DNA from: Chloroflexota bacterium
GTDB taxonomy: Bacteria; Chloroflexota; Anaerolineae; Aggregatilineales; Phototrophicaceae
Assembly (NCBI GenBank): GCA_013388735.1
Contig: JACAES010000102.1
Coordinates: forward strand, 1 to 64,000
Direction of reading: 5' to 3'
DNA length: 64,000 nucleotides
In this document: positions 1 to 56,288 of the stretch, one piece after another
Numbering within the stretch: the first letter of the stretch is position 1
Layout: each line of letters opens with the position of its first letter
The notes under the pieces: model-generated
What the model was told of the DNA's origin: nothing
Seen by the model: the letters and a program-made list of their open reading frames with translations, nothing else
Database searches by the model: none
Position numbers and translations under genes: made by a program

Positions 1-231
1 GCACAGGTGTATCTGTCGGGCGCGGCGTGTGCGTCAGCGTCGGCGTATCCGTTGCAGTCGGTGTAGCCGTCGGTGTATGGCTGGGTGTGAAGGTTGCCGT
101 CGGCGTATCCGTTGCAGTCGGCACAGGTGTATCTGTCGGGCGCGGCGTGTGCGTCAGCGTCGGCGTATCCGTTGCAGTCGGTGTAGCCGTCGGTGTATGG
201 CTGGGTGTGAAGGTAGCCGTCGGCGTCAGGT
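1..231. repeat. Tandem 120-bp coding repeat
   Basis: Bases 1-60 and 121-180 are identical, and 61-107 matches 181-227 with one substitution. The unit is therefore 120 bp (40 codons). One complete unit and most of a second are visible, and the array continues past the left edge. Read on the minus strand it encodes Thr-Pro-rich linker. The near-identity at DNA level indicates recent duplication rather than old codon convergence. Confidence 0.9.
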
Positions 232-29629: not shown

Positions 29630-30463
29630 TTAACCCTTACGAATTTCCATTCGCGCCGCCTCGAACATCACCTCGACCGGCGCGGGCTGCCCCGTCCAGA
29701 TTTCAAAGGCCGCCGCGCCCTGCCGCACCAGCATCCCCAGACCGCCGATGACAGACCCGCCGGCGGCCTCCGCCTGCCGCATCAGCCGCGTCATCGCCGG
29801 GCGATATACCATATCATACACCGTTACGCCGCGCGGGAACGGCAGGCCGCTGATCCAGGGCGAGTCGTCCACATGCGGCCACATACCGACCGAGGTGCAG
29901 TTCACGATCAGGGACACGCCGTCCTGCTCCAAGGCTTCGTCCAGCGTTTTCGCCTCTACACCCTGGATGCCCGCCGAAAGCGCCAGATCGGCCAGCATCA
30001 GCCGGGCTTTTTCCGGCGTGCGGTTGACCACCGTCACGCGCGCGCCGGCCCGCGCCAGCCCGTACACCGCCGCCCGCGCCGCGCCGCCCGCCCCCAAGAC
30101 GATCACGCGACGGCCTGGCACAGTCACGCCATTTGCTTCCAGATCGCCCAGGAAGCCGGCCACGTCGGTATTGGTGCCGGTGTTATCACGGAAGTTTATC
30201 GTATTCACCGCGCCGACTGCCCGCGCCCGGTCGTCCGGTTTGATATAGGGCATGACCGCCTGTTTGAGCGGCACGGTCACGTTCACGCCGATGAAGCCGC
30301 CCTCGTCGCGCAGTGTCCGCAAGCCCTGGCGCACGATGTCCGGCGGAATCGGCAGCAGTTCATACGACCAGTCGTCCAGGCCGAGCGCAGCAAAAGCCGC
30401 GTTGTGCATGGCCGGACTGATGCTGTGCGTCACCGGCCAGCCGATTAATCCAACTCGGTTCAC
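29630..30463 (-). CDS. aroE: Shikimate dehydrogenase
   Basis: Protein of 277 residues. The GTG start at 30463 overlaps the upstream stop (GTGA), has AAGGG before it, and opens on MNRVGLIGWPVTHSISPAMH. The catalytic Lys is in GVNVTVPLKQAVMPY and Asp is in NTDVAGFL. The NADP-binding turn is VIVLGAGGAARAAVYGL with the NRT phosphate clamp in VTVVNRTPEKAR. It reduces 3-dehydroshikimate to shikimate. The longer open frame to 30628 only overlaps the preceding gene and is not used. Confidence 0.95.
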   Translation of the reverse strand: MNRVGLIGWPVTHSISPAMHNAAFAALGLDDWSYELLPIPPDIVRQGLRTLRDEGGFIGVNVTVPLKQAVMPYIKPDDRARAVGAVNTINFRDNTGTNTDVAGFLGDLEANGVTVPGRRVIVLGAGGAARAAVYGLARAGARVTVVNRTPEKARLMLADLALSAGIQGVEAKTLDEALEQDGVSLIVNCTSVGMWPHVDDSPWISGLPFPRGVTVYDMVYRPAMTRLMRQAEAAGGSVIGGLGMLVRQGAAAFEIWTGQPAPVEVMFEAARMEIRKG

Positions 30464-31014
30464 AGCAGCCCTTTCAGCACAATTAAACCCAGCGCGCCCG
30501 CCCCTGGAATGATCGGCAGCGGGCAACACAGGATGGCCGGCGTCCGGCTGATGACCGCCGACACCAGCGCCGTCGCGCCCCACAGGCCGAAGCCCACCAC
30601 CGCCAGCACAACGATCAGCGTGCCGCACTGCACGGTGCGCCGCTGGCTCTCATACTGCCGGTTCGCCTCCGGCGGCACGCGCCCTTTGCCGCCGCACAAC
30701 CCGCACGGCGCGAAGCTGAACACCTGCTCGGTTTCGTCTTCACTTTCGCCCCAGCGCCAGGTGCGCTTGCCACCTGTCCCCTGACAGGATGGACAGACCG
30801 GATAACGCGCAAACGTCTGCCACTCGTTGAGCTGCTGGCGTGTGACCGGTTCGCCGCCGCAGAACCAGCACGGCTCGGCGTGCGGTTGGCTTTCGCCCAT
30901 GATGTCGTAGCGGTGGCGCGGCTTGAAAACATAGGTCTTCTCGCGCTCCCCCACCCCGCCGCAGACCGGACAGGTATCCGGCTCAAACCGTTGAATCTGT
31001 TCTGGAGTCGTCAT
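30460..31014 (-). CDS. Zinc-finger membrane protein (DnaJ-like CxxCxG repeats)
   Basis: Protein of 184 residues. Four Cys pairs line up as in the DnaJ cysteine-rich domain: CPVCGGVG (15-22), CWFCGGE, CPSCQGTGGK and CGLCGGKG. A basic linker follows, then two hydrophobic segments (about 130-155 and 160-182), so the zinc part probably faces the cytoplasm at the membrane. There is no J domain. The gene is co-transcribed with aroA and overlaps aroE. Its function is not recognised. It is the second small zinc protein in this operon. Confidence 0.72.
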   Translation of the reverse strand: MTTPEQIQRFEPDTCPVCGGVGEREKTYVFKPRHRYDIMGESQPHAEPCWFCGGEPVTRQQLNEWQTFARYPVCPSCQGTGGKRTWRWGESEDETEQVFSFAPCGLCGGKGRVPPEANRQYESQRRTVQCGTLIVVLAVVGFGLWGATALVSAVISRTPAILCCPLPIIPGAGALGLIVLKGLL

Positions 31015-31037: not shown

Positions 31038-32351
31038 TCAGGGAGGGGTTAAAGCCCTCTGGCTTATGTCCGCCCCCAGCGCCGCCATCGTCTCGGCAAA
31101 GCCGGGGAACGAATCTCCCGCGCACCGGGCATCCAGCACCGTCGTTTGACCGCCGGCCACCAGACCGGCCACACTCAGGCTCATGGCAATCCGGTGGTCG
31201 TCGTGGCCGTCTACCGTCGCGGCTTTCAACGTTTGCGGCCCGCGAATGATGAAGCCATCCGGCGTCTCGGTGATGTTGGCGCCCAGCTTCGCCAGTTCCG
31301 CCGCCATCACGCTGATGCGGTCGGTTTCCTTCACGCGCAGTTCCGCCGCGTCCCGCACGACGGTTTCGCCCTCTGCCGCCAGCGCCGCCACCATCAGAAT
31401 CGGAAACTCGTCAATCATCTCCACGACAACATTCCCGCCGACTTCCACACCCTTGAGCATACTATGACGCGCGCGAATCGTGCCAACCGGCTCACCGGCT
31501 TCTAATCCGGTTTCGGTCACGGCGATGTCCGCGCCCATGCGCCGCAGCACATCCAGCAAACCCGTGCGCGTCGGGTTGAGATTGACGCCGGTCAGGGTGA
31601 TGTCGCTGCCCGGCACCAGCAGCGCCGCCACCAGCGGGAAGGCCGCCGAGGAAATATCGCCCGGAACGGTCAAATCCAGCGGGCGCAGTTCGCCGTTTGG
31701 CATCAGCACGATCCGATTTCCGTCAGTCACGATGTCCGCGCCCATCGCGCGGAGCATCCGTTCGGTATGGTCACGCGCCGGGCCAGGCTGCACGACCGCC
31801 GTCGCGCCCTCGGCAAACAGCCCCGCCAGCAGCACCGCACTTTTGACCTGGGCGCTGGCGACCGGCATCTCGTAGATGAACCCGCGCAGACCGGCAGGTC
31901 TGATCGTCAGGGGCGCGCGGTCGTTGACGCCGCTGATGTCCGCGCCCATCATTCGCAGCGGCGTGATGATACGTTTCATCGGGCGGCGGCGCAGCTGTTC
32001 GCTGCCGTCCAGCACGCTTTCAAACGGCTGTCCGCACATCATCCCCGCCAGCAGCCGGATGCCCGTCCCGGCATTGACCAGATTCAGCGGCGCGCCCGGC
32101 GGCAGGAACGGGCCGCCGTGAATCGTGAGATCATTTTTGCCGTGACGTTCGATCGGTATCCCCAATGCCTGAACGCTGGCTAACGACGCCTCGGTATCCC
32201 CCGCCGCCAGCCAGCCCCGAACGCGCGTGATGCCGTGCGCCAGCGCGCCGAACATCACCGCCCGATGCGAGATGGATTTATCGCCGGGGACAGTAGCCGC
32301 GCCCTTCAGGCCGCCCCCCGCTTTGACCAGAAAACAATCCTGTGCGGTCAT
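31038..32351 (-). CDS. aroA: 3-phosphoshikimate 1-carboxyvinyltransferase (EPSP synthase)
   Basis: Protein of 437 residues, normal length. Landmarks: VPGDKSISHRAVMFGALAHG with the catalytic Lys, LVNAGTGIRLLAGMMCG, RRRPMKRIITPLRMMGAD and QVKSAVLLAGLFAEG. Later come DEFPILMVAALAAEGETVV, LRVKETDRISVMAAEL, and DGHDDHRIAMSLSVAGL near the C-terminus. It transfers enolpyruvyl from PEP to shikimate-3-phosphate. The start overlaps the tyrA stop by 4 nt (ATGA). Confidence 0.96.
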   Translation of the reverse strand: MTAQDCFLVKAGGGLKGAATVPGDKSISHRAVMFGALAHGITRVRGWLAAGDTEASLASVQALGIPIERHGKNDLTIHGGPFLPPGAPLNLVNAGTGIRLLAGMMCGQPFESVLDGSEQLRRRPMKRIITPLRMMGADISGVNDRAPLTIRPAGLRGFIYEMPVASAQVKSAVLLAGLFAEGATAVVQPGPARDHTERMLRAMGADIVTDGNRIVLMPNGELRPLDLTVPGDISSAAFPLVAALLVPGSDITLTGVNLNPTRTGLLDVLRRMGADIAVTETGLEAGEPVGTIRARHSMLKGVEVGGNVVVEMIDEFPILMVAALAAEGETVVRDAAELRVKETDRISVMAAELAKLGANITETPDGFIIRGPQTLKAATVDGHDDHRIAMSLSVAGLVAGGQTTVLDARCAGDSFPGFAETMAALGADISQRALTPP

Positions 32352-33241
32352 TTTTTATACCCGTTTTCATACTTTTGAATCCACTTGAGCCGCGCCTGCC
32401 GCGCCGGTTTGAGGAACTCCGCCACCTTCTGATCGTCGCGCGAGACCAGCATGGCTTCCAGCATCGCCAACTGCACGCGGAACAGCGCCAGCAGGGTCGC
32501 CACCGCCTGCGTGTTGGTGCTGAGGATGTCCCCCATCATCTGCACATCCTGCGAGGCCAGCCGCGACATATCCCGGAAGCCGCCCGCCGCCAGTTCCCAG
32601 ACGGTCGGGTCAGTCTGCCCCTGCTGCGCCACCGTCGCCACCAGCGTCGCGCTCAGAATGTACGGCAGATGGCTGATGGCCGCCACCAGATGATCGTGCC
32701 GCTCCGCCTCCATCTCGAACGGCACCGCGCCCAGTGCATCCACCAGCGCCAGCGCCCGCTCCCGCGCTGCCGGCGTCGTGCGCCGGGTGGGGCATAATAC
32801 AAATGGCCGTCCCCGGTATAATGCCGCTTCGCTATAACGGATGCCGGGGTTTTCCTTGCCGGTCATCGGGTGGCCGCCGACGGCCTGGATGCCCACCGGC
32901 AGCCGCCCCATGGCCTCGCAGATGTCGTGTTTGGTGCTGCCGATGTCCAGCAGCAGCGTATTCGAGCGCAGATACGACCCGATGCGCCGCTCCACCATCC
33001 CCTGGATGGCGCGCACCGGCGCGCACAGAATGACGGTATCCGCCTCGGCCACGCCTTTTTGTAAATTGTCGGTGGCGGCGTCCACCATCCTCGTCTCAAG
33101 CGCATAGGCGCGCGCCTCCCGGTCGAGTTCAATGCCCGTGATGGTATCCACACATCCCCGTAGCGCCAGCGCCAGTGACCCGCCCATCAAACCCAGACCA
33201 ACGACGGCCAGGTGACGGCTCGTAAAACCACCTGAAGCCAT
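32348..33241 (-). CDS. tyrA: Prephenate dehydrogenase
   Basis: Protein of 297 residues. The NAD-binding turn is VVGLGLMGGSLALALRG (about residues 13-29). DTVILCAPVRAIQGMV and GSTKHDICEAM follow. The catalytic His is in AVGGHPMTGKENPGI, and DHLVAAISHLPYILSATLV belongs to the helical dimer domain. It oxidatively decarboxylates prephenate to 4-hydroxyphenylpyruvate, the tyrosine branch. No C-terminal ACT domain is present, so feedback control may lie elsewhere, for instance in the leader upstream of aroH. Confidence 0.93.
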   Translation of the reverse strand: MASGGFTSRHLAVVGLGLMGGSLALALRGCVDTITGIELDREARAYALETRMVDAATDNLQKGVAEADTVILCAPVRAIQGMVERRIGSYLRSNTLLLDIGSTKHDICEAMGRLPVGIQAVGGHPMTGKENPGIRYSEAALYRGRPFVLCPTRRTTPAARERALALVDALGAVPFEMEAERHDHLVAAISHLPYILSATLVATVAQQGQTDPTVWELAAGGFRDMSRLASQDVQMMGDILSTNTQAVATLLALFRVQLAMLEAMLVSRDDQKVAEFLKPARQARLKWIQKYENGYKK

Positions 33242-33292: not shown

Positions 33293-34309
33293 TCAGGCCG
33301 TGCGCCCGACGGCTTCCGCCACCCGGCGCACCTGCTCCATCATCGCCTTAAAGCGGTCGGGTTTGAGGCTCTGGCGGCCATCCGACACAGCTTCTTCCGG
33401 CCTGGCGTGAACTTCAACGATCAGGCCGTCCGCCCCGGCGGCGACGGCGCTGCGCGCTATCGGCTCGACATATTCCCATAAGCCGACCGCGTGGCTGGGG
33501 TCGGCGATCACCGGCAAATGTGTGGCGGCCTTGAGAACGGGGATGGCGTTCACGTCGAAGGTGTTGCGCGTGGCCTTCTCGAACGTGCGGATGCCGCGTT
33601 CGCAGACCATCACCCGTTTGTTGCCGTGCGCCAGGATGTATTCCGCCGACATCAGCAGGTCTTCAACCGTGCTGCTCATACCGCGTTTGAGCAGGATGGT
33701 CTGCTGGCTTTCGCCCGCCGCGTTCAGCAGCGTGAAGTTCTGCATATTGCGCGCCCCGATCTGAAGCACGTCGGCGTACTGACAGACCAGCGGCACCAGA
33801 GCCGCGTCCATCACTTCTGTCACCACCGGCAGGCCGGTGCGCTCGCGGGCTTCCGCCAGCCATTGCAGAGCTTTTTCGCCATAACCCTGAAAGCTGTACG
33901 GCGATGTGCGCGGTTTAAACGCCCCGCCCCGCAGCGCCGTCGCGCCGGCCTCTTTGACCGCGCAGGCCAGTTCGATGATCTGGTCGCGGCTTTCGACCGA
34001 ACACGGCCCGGCGATCACCAGCACCTTTTTGCCGCCCATCTGCGAACCGTTCAGCGGCACCAGCGTATCGGCGGGATGGAAGTGCCGGCTGGCGAGTTTG
34101 TACGGCACCGAGACGCGCACCACTTTTTCCACGCCGTCCATCACGCTGTAGTTTTCTTCCTTCAGCGGCGTCGGGCTTTCCCCCACCACGCCGATGATGG
34201 TATGCTGTTCGCCCTCCGAAAGATGCGCCCGGTAGCCGTCGGCCTGGACGTGGTTTATCACATCGGAAATCTGCCTGGCGGTCGCCTTCGCCTTCATCAC
34301 AATAATCAT
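33293..34309 (-). CDS. aroF: DAHP synthase, type I-beta with N-terminal ferredoxin-like domain
   Basis: Protein of 338 residues. Residues 1-70 form the ferredoxin-like (FL) domain, and [15 protein letters not shown] opens the catalytic barrel. Active-site landmarks: [66 protein letters not shown], and [17 protein letters not shown]. It condenses PEP with erythrose-4-phosphate, the committed step of the pathway. In Thermotoga the FL domain carries Tyr/Phe feedback; the same is plausible here. The start overlaps the aroH stop by 4 nt. Confidence 0.95.
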
Positions 34310-34710
34310 GGCGCTACCCTCCCGTTCAAAACGATTTTATTGTCCGGGTAAAGATCGGGACGCAGCACCAGCGCATCCCGCATGTATACATGGCGAATTT
34401 CTTCCAGGCTGCGCGTTGTATTCCAGTGAATAAGGATGCGGATGCAGCGTGGGATGGCGTCCACGCAGTCCATCTCCTGGAAACCCAGCAGCGCGGCCTG
34501 ACGCCAGCCCAGATCGCGCGCCGCTCTGGCCGGATAGGCGGCGTGTAAATCCGGCGTGGTCGTAAACAGCACGCTGGCCGCATCCTTTTCTTCGATGCCG
34601 TTCACCTCGATCATGGCCTGGAACAGTTCCCGTGTCGCGCTCAGAATTTCCTCCGCCGTATCCTGCTGGACGGTGGTCGCCCCGCGCACGCCTCGCAGCA
34701 TCATCGTCAT
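34306..34710 (-). CDS. aroH: Chorismate mutase, AroH type
   Basis: Protein of 134 residues with GGGGAG just before the ATG. The trimeric AroH fold is indicated by [20 protein letters not shown] with the active-site Arg, [20 protein letters not shown] with further active-site Arg, and [18 protein letters not shown]. It rearranges chorismate to prephenate and so opens the Tyr/Phe branch. It is the first gene after the aromatic leader and terminator, and it overlaps aroF. Confidence 0.95.
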
Positions 34711-34737
34711 CGTTCTCCCCTTTCGTCGGCTGATGCA

Positions 34738-34771
34738 ACAAAAAAGGCGCGGAGCGTTTGCTCTGCGCCTT
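34738..34771 (-). terminator. Intrinsic terminator/attenuator before aroH
   Basis: Minus-strand stem AAGGCGCAGAGC (34771-34760), loop AAAC, then GCTCCGCGCCTT (34755-34744), with one mismatch and a run of six T. It ends 27 nt before the aroH start, so RNA polymerase must read through it to express aroH and the genes after it. Confidence 0.85.
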
Positions 34772-34797
34772 GTGGTTCCCCGGTTACTCCGTTCAGT

Positions 34798-34896
34798 TCA
34801 GCAGCTTACCGTCCATCCAGCACGCAACGCTCCACCCGTTATTATGTGGCTCGTAAAGTAATAATAGGTGAAACGAAAGCTGTATCGAATGTTCAC
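34798..34896 (-). CDS. Putative aromatic leader peptide
   Basis: A 32-codon frame starting at GTG. Near the N-terminus it reads NIRYSFRFTYYYFTSH: eight of these sixteen residues are Tyr or Phe, including three Tyr in a row followed by Phe. No Shine-Dalgarno site is seen. However, an eight-codon frame starting at ATG 34916 (MFPVFSA) ends at 34893, so its stop overlaps this GTG as GTGA, which would allow coupled translation. The same frame stays open upstream to 34983 and includes further Tyr and Phe codons, so the real start is uncertain. Confidence 0.5.
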   Translation of the reverse strand: MNIRYSFRFTYYYFTSHIITGGALRAGWTVSC

Positions 34897-34984
34897 GCCG
34901 AAAAAACCGGAAACATACTGATATAGCGCAGAGCGTAACACAAGGTCATCGAAACTGTCAAATTTCCGGCTGCAAAATTCCACC

Positions 34985-35087
34985 TTCCATTCAAAATCCG
35001 TTCAGTCTGCACAAGATCGTCTGTGCGCCTTAAACGGGAAACACGCCTTAACTTTTCTTCGTGCCTTTGCCTCTCAGCGCCTTTGCA
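34985..35087. repeat. Post-stop repeat fragment after trpA
   Basis: Directly after the trpA stop the minus strand reads GCAAAGGCGCTGAGAGGCAAAG and on through GGCACGAAG. This is similar in style to the CACAGAG/CAAAGG repeat elements at 51.4 and 52.7 kb, but only one arm is present. The rest of the gap shows no recognisable feature. Confidence 0.4.
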
Positions 35088-35897
35088 TCAAACATGAACT
35101 GCTTCCCGCAGCCGGGCCGCCAGCGCCCCAACCGGGCCCGCGCCATCTTTGCCGGCTTTCACCAGCGCGCTGCCAACGATGAAGCCATCTACCAGGCCGT
35201 TCATCGTCCGCGCCTGCTCCGGCGTGCTGATGCCAAAACCCAGCACCAGCGGTTTGTCGGCCAGCGCGCGCACCCGCGTGATAAAGCCGGTGAGGTCAGG
35301 CGGCAGCTCGGCGCGCGCGCCGGTCACGCCGGTTAACGACACGACATAGATAAACCCGGTCACGTGCCGGTTGACCAGTTCAACGCGCCGGCTGTCGCTG
35401 GTCGGCGCCAGGAAAAACACGGTCGCCAGCCCCGCGCCCCGGCAGATTTCCGACCACGCTTCCGCTTCCTCCGGCGGCAAGTCCGGCACGATCACGCCGT
35501 CCGCCCCGGCGGCGCGGGCATCGGCGGCGAAGCGTTCCGGGCCGTAAGCCAGCAGCGGATTGAGGTAGCTCATCAGCAGCATCGGCTGTATCACGCCGCG
35601 CCTGCGCAGCGCCTGCACCGCGTCCAGGCACTTGCCGACCGTGATGCCGTTTTCCAGCGCGACCTGAGTCGCCGCCTGGATGGTCGGGCCGTCGGCCAGC
35701 GGATCGCTGAACGGCACGCCGATTTCGAAGCCATCCGCGCCGGCTTCGGCCATCGCCTGAATCGCATCCAGCGAGGCTTCGTAGGTCGGATACCCGACCG
35801 GAAAATACGGCAGGAAGGCCGCGCGCCGCTGCTGCTTCGCGCGGTCGAACATGGCCGCCAGAGCTTTTATCCCGAACACTTGACCCATTTCAGCCAT
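35088..35897 (-). CDS. trpA: Tryptophan synthase alpha subunit
   Basis: Protein of 269 residues; the ATG at 35897 lies 2 nt after the upstream stop with GGGAG ahead. Landmarks: FLPYFPVGYPTYEASLDAIQ, GADGFEIGVPFSDPLADGPTIQ with the catalytic Glu and Asp, GVIVPDLPPEEAEAW, TGFIYVVSLTGVTGAR and LVLGFGISTPEQAR. The alpha subunit splits indole-glycerol phosphate and passes indole to TrpB. Unusually, two unrelated genes stand between trpB and trpA. Confidence 0.96.
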   Translation of the reverse strand: MAEMGQVFGIKALAAMFDRAKQQRRAAFLPYFPVGYPTYEASLDAIQAMAEAGADGFEIGVPFSDPLADGPTIQAATQVALENGITVGKCLDAVQALRRRGVIQPMLLMSYLNPLLAYGPERFAADARAAGADGVIVPDLPPEEAEAWSEICRGAGLATVFFLAPTSDSRRVELVNRHVTGFIYVVSLTGVTGARAELPPDLTGFITRVRALADKPLVLGFGISTPEQARTMNGLVDGFIVGSALVKAGKDGAGPVGALAARLREAVHV

Positions 35898-35899
35898 GA

Positions 35900-37207
35900 T
35901 TACTTGCTCCCTACCCGCAGGATTTTGGCATCCACGAACTTTTCGCCGTCGAACATCAGCCGCGCGCCCTCGCACCAACTGCACGCGCCGCCCCAGGCGG
36001 CATGATCGGCATCCGGCAGGCAGCCGACCGCCTGCGCCTCGACGATGCCGCCGTGCGAAACCACCAGCGCCGACCCGCCAGGGGGCAGCGCCGCCGCCAC
36101 TTCACGCACGAACGCGGCCTGCTTCTGCACGTAACGCGCCGCCGTGCCGCCCAATCGCGCCGCGGCTGCCCAGGCCGCGAATCCGGCGTCCCAAGCCACC
36201 TCATTCTCAACGCCGTCGTCAATCATGCCCAGCGCCTCAAGCTGTTCGTCAACCGCGAAACCCATCGCCAGCGCCGTTTCGTAAGCGCGGGGAATGGTGC
36301 TGGTGATAACCCGGTCAAACGGCCCGGCGGCGCTGCCTACTCGCCGCGCCAGTTCCACGCCCGCCTGCGACAAACGCTGCCCCGGCTTGACCCGCATGGT
36401 ATGCCGCCGCAGTTCGACCGTTCGCAGGCTGGCCGCGTTCGCCACCAGCGGACGCCGCAGCGCATCCAGCCCGGCTTCGATGATTTCCTGCGTGACGGCC
36501 ACCCGCATCGCCCAGTTCTGCGCCGCTTCGTCGTAAGCCTGGGCAAATCGCCGCTGGATGTCCGCATCGGCGGCCTGTTCCTGATAACGATCTGCCGACT
36601 CCCAATCCAGGCCGTCCACGAAAACCGGCCTCACGGCAAATCCCGCCCGGTGCAGCAGCACCGGCCATTCAGTATCCGCGCCCAACGCGCGCGCCGGCCA
36701 GGTGTTCGCCATCAGGAACTCGACCGCCCGGCGGCTGAAGCCTTTCGACCCCGCGCCAAAATCCATCGTCTGACCCAGCAGGTACGAAAAGACGCGGTTG
36801 ATGATGTCCTCCGCCTGGAACATGGCGCGCGGATGCGTCTCCCACGCCGCCGCCGTCCGGCCAATCACTAGGCACTCGGCGCGCCGCACCTGTTCGACCG
36901 TCTGCCGCCACTCGTCCGGGCGCGTTTCGACCCAGCGCAGCAGGCGATCCATGTCGGCATAATGAACGGCCTGGGCAGGGCTTTCCAGCGCGGCCTTGAG
37001 CGCCCTGTACCGCCCGTGCTGCCAGTCGTCATTGACGAAAGCATGGACGCCGCTTAAGGCCTGGATCGTGACTACATCTTCCGGCGTCGCCGTCGGCGGC
37101 AGCGAAACGATCACGCGCTCATAAACAGCTAACAGTTCCGGCAGCAAACGCCGCAGCCGCCCGATTTCCCCACGCGGGTTAAAGGTAGTCGCCAGTACAA
37201 CCATCAT
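35900..37207 (-). CDS. Fusion: GT-A-like N-terminal domain plus histidine-phosphatase C-terminal domain
   Basis: Protein of 435 residues. The first 250 or so look like a nucleotide-sugar-type GT-A fold: VVLATTFNPRGEIGRLRRLL, a DMD motif in HYADMDRLLRWVE, and MDFGAGSKGFSRRAVEFL. From about residue 270 a phosphoglycerate-mutase-like domain begins with RRHTMRVKPGQRLS, followed by DRVITSTIPRAYETALAMGF and VVSHGGIVEA. The RHG motif is RHT here, so the catalytic His is kept. The two activities have no known link to Trp synthesis. It overlaps the Nudix-GNAT gene by 4 nt and lies 2 nt before trpA. Confidence 0.75.
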   Translation of the reverse strand: MMVVLATTFNPRGEIGRLRRLLPELLAVYERVIVSLPPTATPEDVVTIQALSGVHAFVNDDWQHGRYRALKAALESPAQAVHYADMDRLLRWVETRPDEWRQTVEQVRRAECLVIGRTAAAWETHPRAMFQAEDIINRVFSYLLGQTMDFGAGSKGFSRRAVEFLMANTWPARALGADTEWPVLLHRAGFAVRPVFVDGLDWESADRYQEQAADADIQRRFAQAYDEAAQNWAMRVAVTQEIIEAGLDALRRPLVANAASLRTVELRRHTMRVKPGQRLSQAGVELARRVGSAAGPFDRVITSTIPRAYETALAMGFAVDEQLEALGMIDDGVENEVAWDAGFAAWAAAARLGGTAARYVQKQAAFVREVAAALPPGGSALVVSHGGIVEAQAVGCLPDADHAAWGGACSWCEGARLMFDGEKFVDAKILRVGSK

Positions 37208-45858: not shown

Positions 45859-45898
45859 ACAAAAAACCCCTTCCCGCCATTGAGGACGAGAAGGGGTT
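45859..45898 (-). terminator. T-box-controlled terminator before trpE
   Basis: Minus-strand stem AACCCCTT (45898-45891)/AAGGGGTT (45872-45865), then a run of T at 45866-45861. The 5' arm follows the T-box sequence by a few bases, as expected for terminator/antiterminator exchange. Confidence 0.9.
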
Positions 45899-46152
45899 CC
45901 CGTGGTGCCACCTCTGTTGTTTCACCCATACAGGGTAAAACACTCTTTATGGGTACGGGCCAACCTTACAGCCAACCGATACCCTGCGCCTGTAACGGTG
46001 CGCTTCCGGCGCGGACTACTCTACAGTTCGCCCGTGCAACTCCCTGGCCCATTCCACCCCACCGTATGTACCGCTTTCACAGCTTCCGGCGGCTCTCTGA
46101 ACACCGCTGCGGGGTGTACTCTTCCAGATCAGCGTTGTTATGTATTCAACTG
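45859..46152 (-). ncRNA. T-box riboswitch, tryptophan type
   Basis: Leader of about 290 nt read on the minus strand. The 14-nt T-box core AGGTGGCACCACGGG lies at 45913-45899, just ahead of the terminator. Stem I elements are visible: GGAAGAGTA (specifier-side bulge), CAGAGAGCC (AG bulge) and GAAGCTGTGAAAGC (distal loop). A UGG Trp codon is available in the specifier region at 46056-46054, with a second at 46051-46049. The antiterminator bulge reads UGGC; its C would pair with discriminator G, which fits bacterial tRNA-Trp (G73). Uncharged tRNA-Trp should therefore open expression of trpE and the genes after it. Confidence 0.93.
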
Positions 46153-56100: not shown

Positions 56101-56283
56101 TTCGATCACCCTGCCATGCCGTGTGAACGCGATGTTTTTGAACCTGCTTTCGCAGGTGGGTCATCTAACTGATATATCCGGTCTCAGCTCCGCAAGCCTA
56201 TCACCATCAATAACAGACTCTTGATGCCCTTCATTTGGGTGTTGGCTCAAAACTCATTGCGCCATCACGCGCACAGCAGGTTG
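56100..56283 (-). ncRNA. ssrS: Probable 6S RNA
   Basis: About 184 nt on the minus strand. The closing stem is long: ACCUGCUGUGCGCGUG (56281-56266) pairs with CACACGGCAUGGCAGG (56125-56110) over roughly 14 pairs with one bulge and one mismatch. The 5' bubble strand contains UUUUGAGCC, close to the conserved CUGAGCC. The 3' side has the small hairpin CCCACCUGCGAAAGCAGGUU followed by CAA, as in known 6S RNAs (CACCU...AGGUUCAA). CAUCAA/UUGAUG can form an apical hairpin. A promoter and a terminator frame it exactly. 6S RNA binds the housekeeping RNA polymerase and restrains it in slow growth. Confidence 0.7.
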
Positions 56284-56288
56284 GTATT

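Follow-up and report, generated by a model that had tools for sequence, protein, structure and literature searches.

A predicted tyrosine/phenylalanine leader-peptide attenuator upstream of aroH in Chloroflexota

Most descriptions of leader-peptide attenuation come from Proteobacteria and Actinobacteria, with a few later cases in Firmicutes (PMC2965389, PMC9413887). As stated in PMC2965389, no leader-peptide system had been known beyond the first two phyla before the Firmicutes case reported there. The closest described systems to the element analyzed here, which lies upstream of aroH in a 64,000-nt stretch of Chloroflexota DNA (the window), are the pheA, pheST, and trp attenuators of Proteobacteria (Rfam Phe_leader and Trp_leader). 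Like these, the aroH leader has a short frame with regulatory codons, an antiterminator and a terminator that exclude each other, and pathway genes downstream, and it is predicted to work in the same way. It differs from them in mixing Tyr and Phe codons, in its phylum, and in its lack of sequence similarity to the Rfam models, with no match to Phe_leader or Trp_leader at the gathering score or at E values up to 10. In addition, antiterminator covariation in the window's family is with the loop and 3' arm of the terminator and not with its 5' arm. This antiterminator geometry is the main departure from known attenuators and may reflect clade drift.

Other described elements share single features with this one. 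The His leader peptides of Firmicutes are leader-peptide attenuators from beyond Proteobacteria and Actinobacteria (PMC2965389, PMC9413887), and the aroH leader differs from them in amino acid and phylum. The uORFC-13-1 motif, found before aroF (DAHP synthase) in Acholeplasma, is a candidate Phe-codon leader with a promoter and a terminator; it is confined to Acholeplasma and environmental sequences and is proposed to respond to Phe only (PMC8632094), whereas the aroH leader has mixed Tyr and Phe codons, precedes aroH, and occurs in Chloroflexota. Three T-boxes per genome, two of them trp related, have been reported in Dehalococcoides (PMC2494555). These T-boxes are likewise RNA switches for aromatic tRNA charging in the same phylum, but they bind tRNA directly, while no T-box match is found for the aroH element, which contains a coding frame. 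According to the original prediction for this locus, no such element was known for this type of cluster in Chloroflexota, and the literature that we searched, which lay largely outside subscription journals, contained no report of such an element in this phylum. The class of mechanism is already known; the phylum and the sequence family appear to be new within that literature.

Parts of the aroH leader and its gene neighborhood

The aroH and trpA genes are separated by a gap of 377 nt on the minus strand, and all of the leader elements lie on that strand. The upstream operon runs from trpE to trpA and is preceded by a T-box leader. The downstream genes were identified with NCBIfam models, and the assignments are all clear except for that of tyrA, whose best score is below the model cut-offs.

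45879-46141, minus strand: T-box leader before trpE (RF00230, 119 bits)
35984-35088, minus strand: trpA, upstream neighbor of the leader
34306..34710, minus strand: aroH, chorismate mutase, predicted first regulated gene (TIGR01796, 133.5 bits, cut-off 82)
33293..34309, minus strand: aroF, DAHP synthase (TIGR01361, 382 bits)
32348..33241, minus strand: tyrA, prephenate dehydrogenase (best of many prephenate dehydrogenase models, 205 bits, under the model cut-offs)
31038..32351, minus strand: aroA, EPSP synthase (TIGR01356, 406 bits)
29630..30628, minus strand: aroE, shikimate dehydrogenase (open frame, with the true start further inside; TIGR00507, 228 bits, residues 59-329)

The T-box before trpE contains GAA-UGG-GCC, which suggests a Trp specifier codon, and the same gene cluster would have two different tRNA sensors, this T-box at trpE and the leader frame at aroH. 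A gene inside the trp operon (35900-37207, minus strand) has no NCBIfam match and resembles a histidine-phosphatase domain in its C-terminal half. Elsewhere in the window, a 6S RNA is found at 56104-56285 on the minus strand (RF00013, 68.8 bits).

The gap holds a promoter and a 32-codon GTG frame, together with a short protector hairpin and an antiterminator segment; a strong intrinsic terminator stands just ahead of aroH.

34956..34961, minus strand: -35 hexamer TTGACA
34932..34940, minus strand: extended -10 TGTTACGCT, with an 18-nt spacer from the -35 hexamer to TACGCT and a predicted start site
34798..34896, minus strand: leader peptide frame of 32 codons with a GTG start and a TGA stop, (M/V)NIRYSFRFTYYYFTSHIITGGALRAGWTVSC, identified by conservation of frame and stop
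34855..34884, minus strand: aromatic codon run YSFRFTYYYF, identified by Tyr/Phe density and stall folding
34866-34855, minus strand: predicted sensing codons TAT TAT TAC TTT, the last four of the run, from stall-position folding
34846..34849, minus strand: 5' arm of the protector hairpin, CCAC (alignment A1 columns 25-28)
34832..34835, minus strand: 3' arm of the protector hairpin, GTGG (alignment A1 columns 40-43)
34818..34837, minus strand: antiterminator segment GGGTGGAGCGTTGCGTGCTG, complementary to the terminator (duplex of -28.6 kcal/mol with its own terminator)
34740..34771, minus strand: intrinsic terminator GGCGCAGAGC-AAAC-GCTCCGCGCC-TTTTTT, with its stem at 34769-34746 and a T6 tract, supported by pairing in relatives

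The near-consensus -35 element that had been noted in front of a short aromatic frame is present, as is the second segment described as complementary to the terminator: GGAGCGUU of the antiterminator is perfectly complementary to AACGCUCC of the terminator, which ends about 29 nt upstream of the aroH ATG at 34710. The Tyr/Phe density of the leader (five of six codons) is reached in 0.15% of dinucleotide shuffles of the region. The lack of a Shine-Dalgarno site had been named as a weak point; the GTG start in the window has none, and a motif resembling one is found in only 34 of 94 homologues (background, 12%). It had been proposed that an eight-codon ATG frame (34916-34893), which overlaps the leader GTG, might supply coupled initiation through a GTGA overlap; L003, a close relative, has lost the ATG of this frame, and coupled initiation is therefore not a conserved feature.

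Conservation and pairing in relatives

Our aroH searches covered 61 relatives as well as genome sets for the order (154), the class (199), and the phylum (221), and we then read the upstream regions. An aromatic frame and a terminator occur together at 115 loci in the class, or 95 once near-duplicates are removed. Of 125 regions upstream of aroH in the class, 115 have at least four Tyr or Phe codons within six, compared to 5.9% of dinucleotide shuffles and 0% of opposite strands. Since the frame was picked by its aromatic content, start, stop, and promoter serve as the independent tests. A stop-free in-frame ATG lies upstream of the run in 77 of the 95 homologues (26 and 10 for the other two frames), and the stop of the frame precedes the terminator in 94 of 95. 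A promoter-like pair (TTGA[CT]N-16..19-TANNNT, with a -10 that is mostly TGTTATGCT) is present upstream of the frame and its run in 86 of 95, compared to 1% of shuffles, which places the predicted start of transcription ahead of the frame and not after it. Neither of the outcomes named beforehand as refuting the attenuator was seen: relatives with the terminator but not the frame or the pairing, or transcription starting after the frame. In two relatives, L006 and L027, the leader and the terminator are both missing and trpA continues straight into aroH, so that aroH would fall under the trp promoter and T-box. Outside the class, an aromatic frame is found at 9 of the 34 aroH loci examined from other classes of Chloroflexota, most of which have no such frame before aroH.

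The sequence CATA just past the run (about 34848-34843 in the window, minus strand; alignment A1 columns 27-32) recurs across families in two reading frames, CAC ATA and CAT ACG, which points to a constraint on the RNA and not on the peptide.

The terminator stem is paired in 99.2% of the cells in a column test, with 20 double-change cells. For the antiterminator, the same kind of test in a fixed alignment register showed little covariation because the register of the helix slides between species; for example, L022 pairs GGTGTAGA with TCTACACC, and L024 pairs GGGCGTTGC with GCAACGCCC. The fixed-register test was therefore uninformative and was replaced by swap tests, in which the antiterminator was taken as +0 to +40 nt after the last aromatic codon and was paired either with its own terminator or with terminators swapped inside each clade to compare the energies. 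Own terminators pair better than swapped ones, with z values of -6.1 for the window's family, -8.5 for the remaining families of the order, and -5.8 for other orders, and none of 20,000 permutations reached the observed value in any of these clade groups. For controls, we used the following segment and upstream segments and obtained z values from -2.4 to +1.9, the value of -2.4 coming from one upstream segment in the window's own family. The antiterminator signal is located in the loop and 3' arm of the terminator in the window's family and in the 5' arm and loop in other orders.

The pairing that would hold the antiterminator back differs from the one first proposed. A hairpin with its 5' arm built on the Tyr codons does form in the minimum free energy structure of the window's leader folded with no ribosome, as had been described, but it finds no support as a conserved pause or protector structure, with 70.5% of cells paired across relatives compared to 70.0% after shuffling, and we rejected it. 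Covariation in relatives had been suggested as a check on both original pairings; it bore out the antiterminator-terminator pairing in the swap tests, and in place of the Tyr-codon hairpin the protector that finds support in the window's family is a short CCAC/GUGG hairpin right behind the run. In that family, all four pairs of this protector have double changes, 80.6% of cells are paired, and there are 18 double-change cells, compared to 3 to 7 in a slid register. A blunter swap test of the protector was negative, including in other families, and the column-test support comes from the window's family alone.

Predicted switching and rival explanations

We modeled switching by equilibrium folding of the window leader and its 95 homologues, placing a ribosome at each codon in turn to mask the RNA. 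In the window, the terminator probability is 0.96 with the ribosome stalled well before the run; falls to 0.26, 0.13, 0.03, and 0.03 when TAT, TAT, TAC, and TTT, respectively, occupy the A site; and is 0.96 to 0.97 from ATA to the stop codon. Across the 95 homologues, the mean terminator probability is lowest, at 0.67, at the last aromatic codon, compared to 0.82 ten codons earlier (P = 1.5e-7) and 0.93 five codons later (P = 8.5e-12), and Tyr and Phe are overrepresented among the codons at which a stall opens the terminator (odds ratio, 4.9). At equilibrium, the terminator probability drops below 0.5 on stalling in only 28 of the 95 homologues, compared to 10% with foreign spacers, and in L013 it is 0.92 at every stall position. 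Equilibrium folding thus suggests that a stall at the regulatory codons would relieve termination, and it predicts an effect for the final Y Y Y F codons alone and none for the earlier YSFRF.

These computed parts, with the frame, terminator, antiterminator pairing, and upstream promoter all kept in relatives, agree with the original prediction of a Tyr/Phe leader-peptide attenuator, and we infer that the leader is translated, that ribosomes stall on it, and that it regulates in vivo in response to amino acid and tRNA supply. The aroH leader is very probably a ribosome-mediated transcription attenuator that senses a shortage of charged tRNA-Tyr and tRNA-Phe. Transcription from the promoter between trpA and aroH would produce a leader RNA with the 32-codon frame. 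When Tyr and Phe are plentiful, the ribosome would pass TAT TAT TAC TTT and reach the stop codon; CCAC would then pair with GTGG, or the ribosome itself would cover the segment, and with the antiterminator segment unavailable the terminator would halt transcription upstream of aroH. With charged tRNA-Tyr or tRNA-Phe in short supply, the ribosome would stall at the last aromatic codons and cover CCAC, releasing GGGTGGAGCGTTGC to invade the terminator, and RNA polymerase would continue into aroH-aroF-tyrA-aroA.

A different sensor could in principle act on the same RNA. The nascent peptide might sense free Tyr or Phe, as in TnaC, instead of the codons stalling on uncharged tRNA, and residues near the run do recur (YYYFxSHI in the window's genus). 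However, across families only the aromatic codons recur, Tyr and Phe are freely interchanged, the N-terminal part is unrelated, the recurring CATA in two frames fits an RNA constraint, and the predicted effective stall site is the aromatic run itself, all of which make peptide sensing very improbable. Direct binding of uncharged tRNA-Tyr or tRNA-Phe by a T-box riboswitch, with no leader translation, is the least probable of the alternatives weighed here, even though a T-box stands before trpE in the same cluster and GGGGAACCAC before the aroH terminator is faintly like T-box sequence. The Rfam T-box model finds no match in 34600-35200 even at E values up to 10, while scoring 119 bits upstream of trpE; the T-box-like string GGAACCAC is not conserved in relatives; and what is conserved is a frame that ends in a stop and uses TAT/TAC and TTT/TTC synonymously. 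The missing covariance-model match and the unconserved string refute, in practice, a T-box identity for the aroH leader.

The terminator might also be constitutive and simply end the trp operon, with the aromatic-looking frame arising by chance from T-rich DNA. It does sit after trpA, and the leader is more A+T rich than its surroundings. However, a conserved promoter precedes the frame, so a constitutive terminator would block aroH's own transcript, and the frame, its start, its stop, and a covarying antiterminator are conserved over many families; we regard this explanation as even less probable than peptide sensing.

Other leaders in Chloroflexota

A covariance model of the leader finds one copy in the window's genome and additional matches in relatives, twice before aroF and once before tyrS. 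In L187 (G025:C37), an aromatic leader and terminator lie upstream of a second aroF, and in L192 (G050:C434) they lie before aroF-aroA in a genome in which no aroH was detected. In one genome (L189, G044:C19), the leader MLRNSNLYYYSKAIRVSMARVSGR and a terminator precede tyrS; its run has Tyr codons and no Phe, which is what codon-determined specificity would predict.

Through the same covariance model, we reached Thr/Met-rich short frames with a terminator before aspartokinase at 21 of 25 family loci (L223-L246), among them MMTTMGMGTYPHRKVQGSFRLP in the window's own genome (L235, G000:C58); none were found at the five aspartokinase loci from other families of the order. These frames are likely a second leader-peptide attenuator. 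We think it more probable than not that Chloroflexota have old, lineage-specific leader-peptide attenuators for Tyr/Phe (aroH/aroF), Tyr (tyrS, in one genome), and Thr/Met (aspartokinase), beside T-boxes in the same clusters and with an antiterminator whose complementarity extends over the loop and both arms of the terminator and is not limited to the 5' arm. Leader-peptide attenuation in at least two Chloroflexota classes bears on how often such control arose, and a T-box adjoining a leader peptide in one cluster bears on how a pathway is split, with Trp handled by the T-box and Tyr/Phe by the leader. The set of 95 sequences gives directly testable, position-specific predictions, in that the last aromatic codons alone should matter, and the covariance model is a possible addition to Rfam.

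No leader peptides were seen before ilvB and pheS in relatives, so leaders do not precede every such gene. Two pheS loci, L283 and L287, have no Rfam match. At five others (L278, L282, L288, L289, and L294), the region upstream of pheS has a recurring CTCGTCCCT...GGGGCGAG hairpin followed by a T tract, which resembles the end of a T-box leader.
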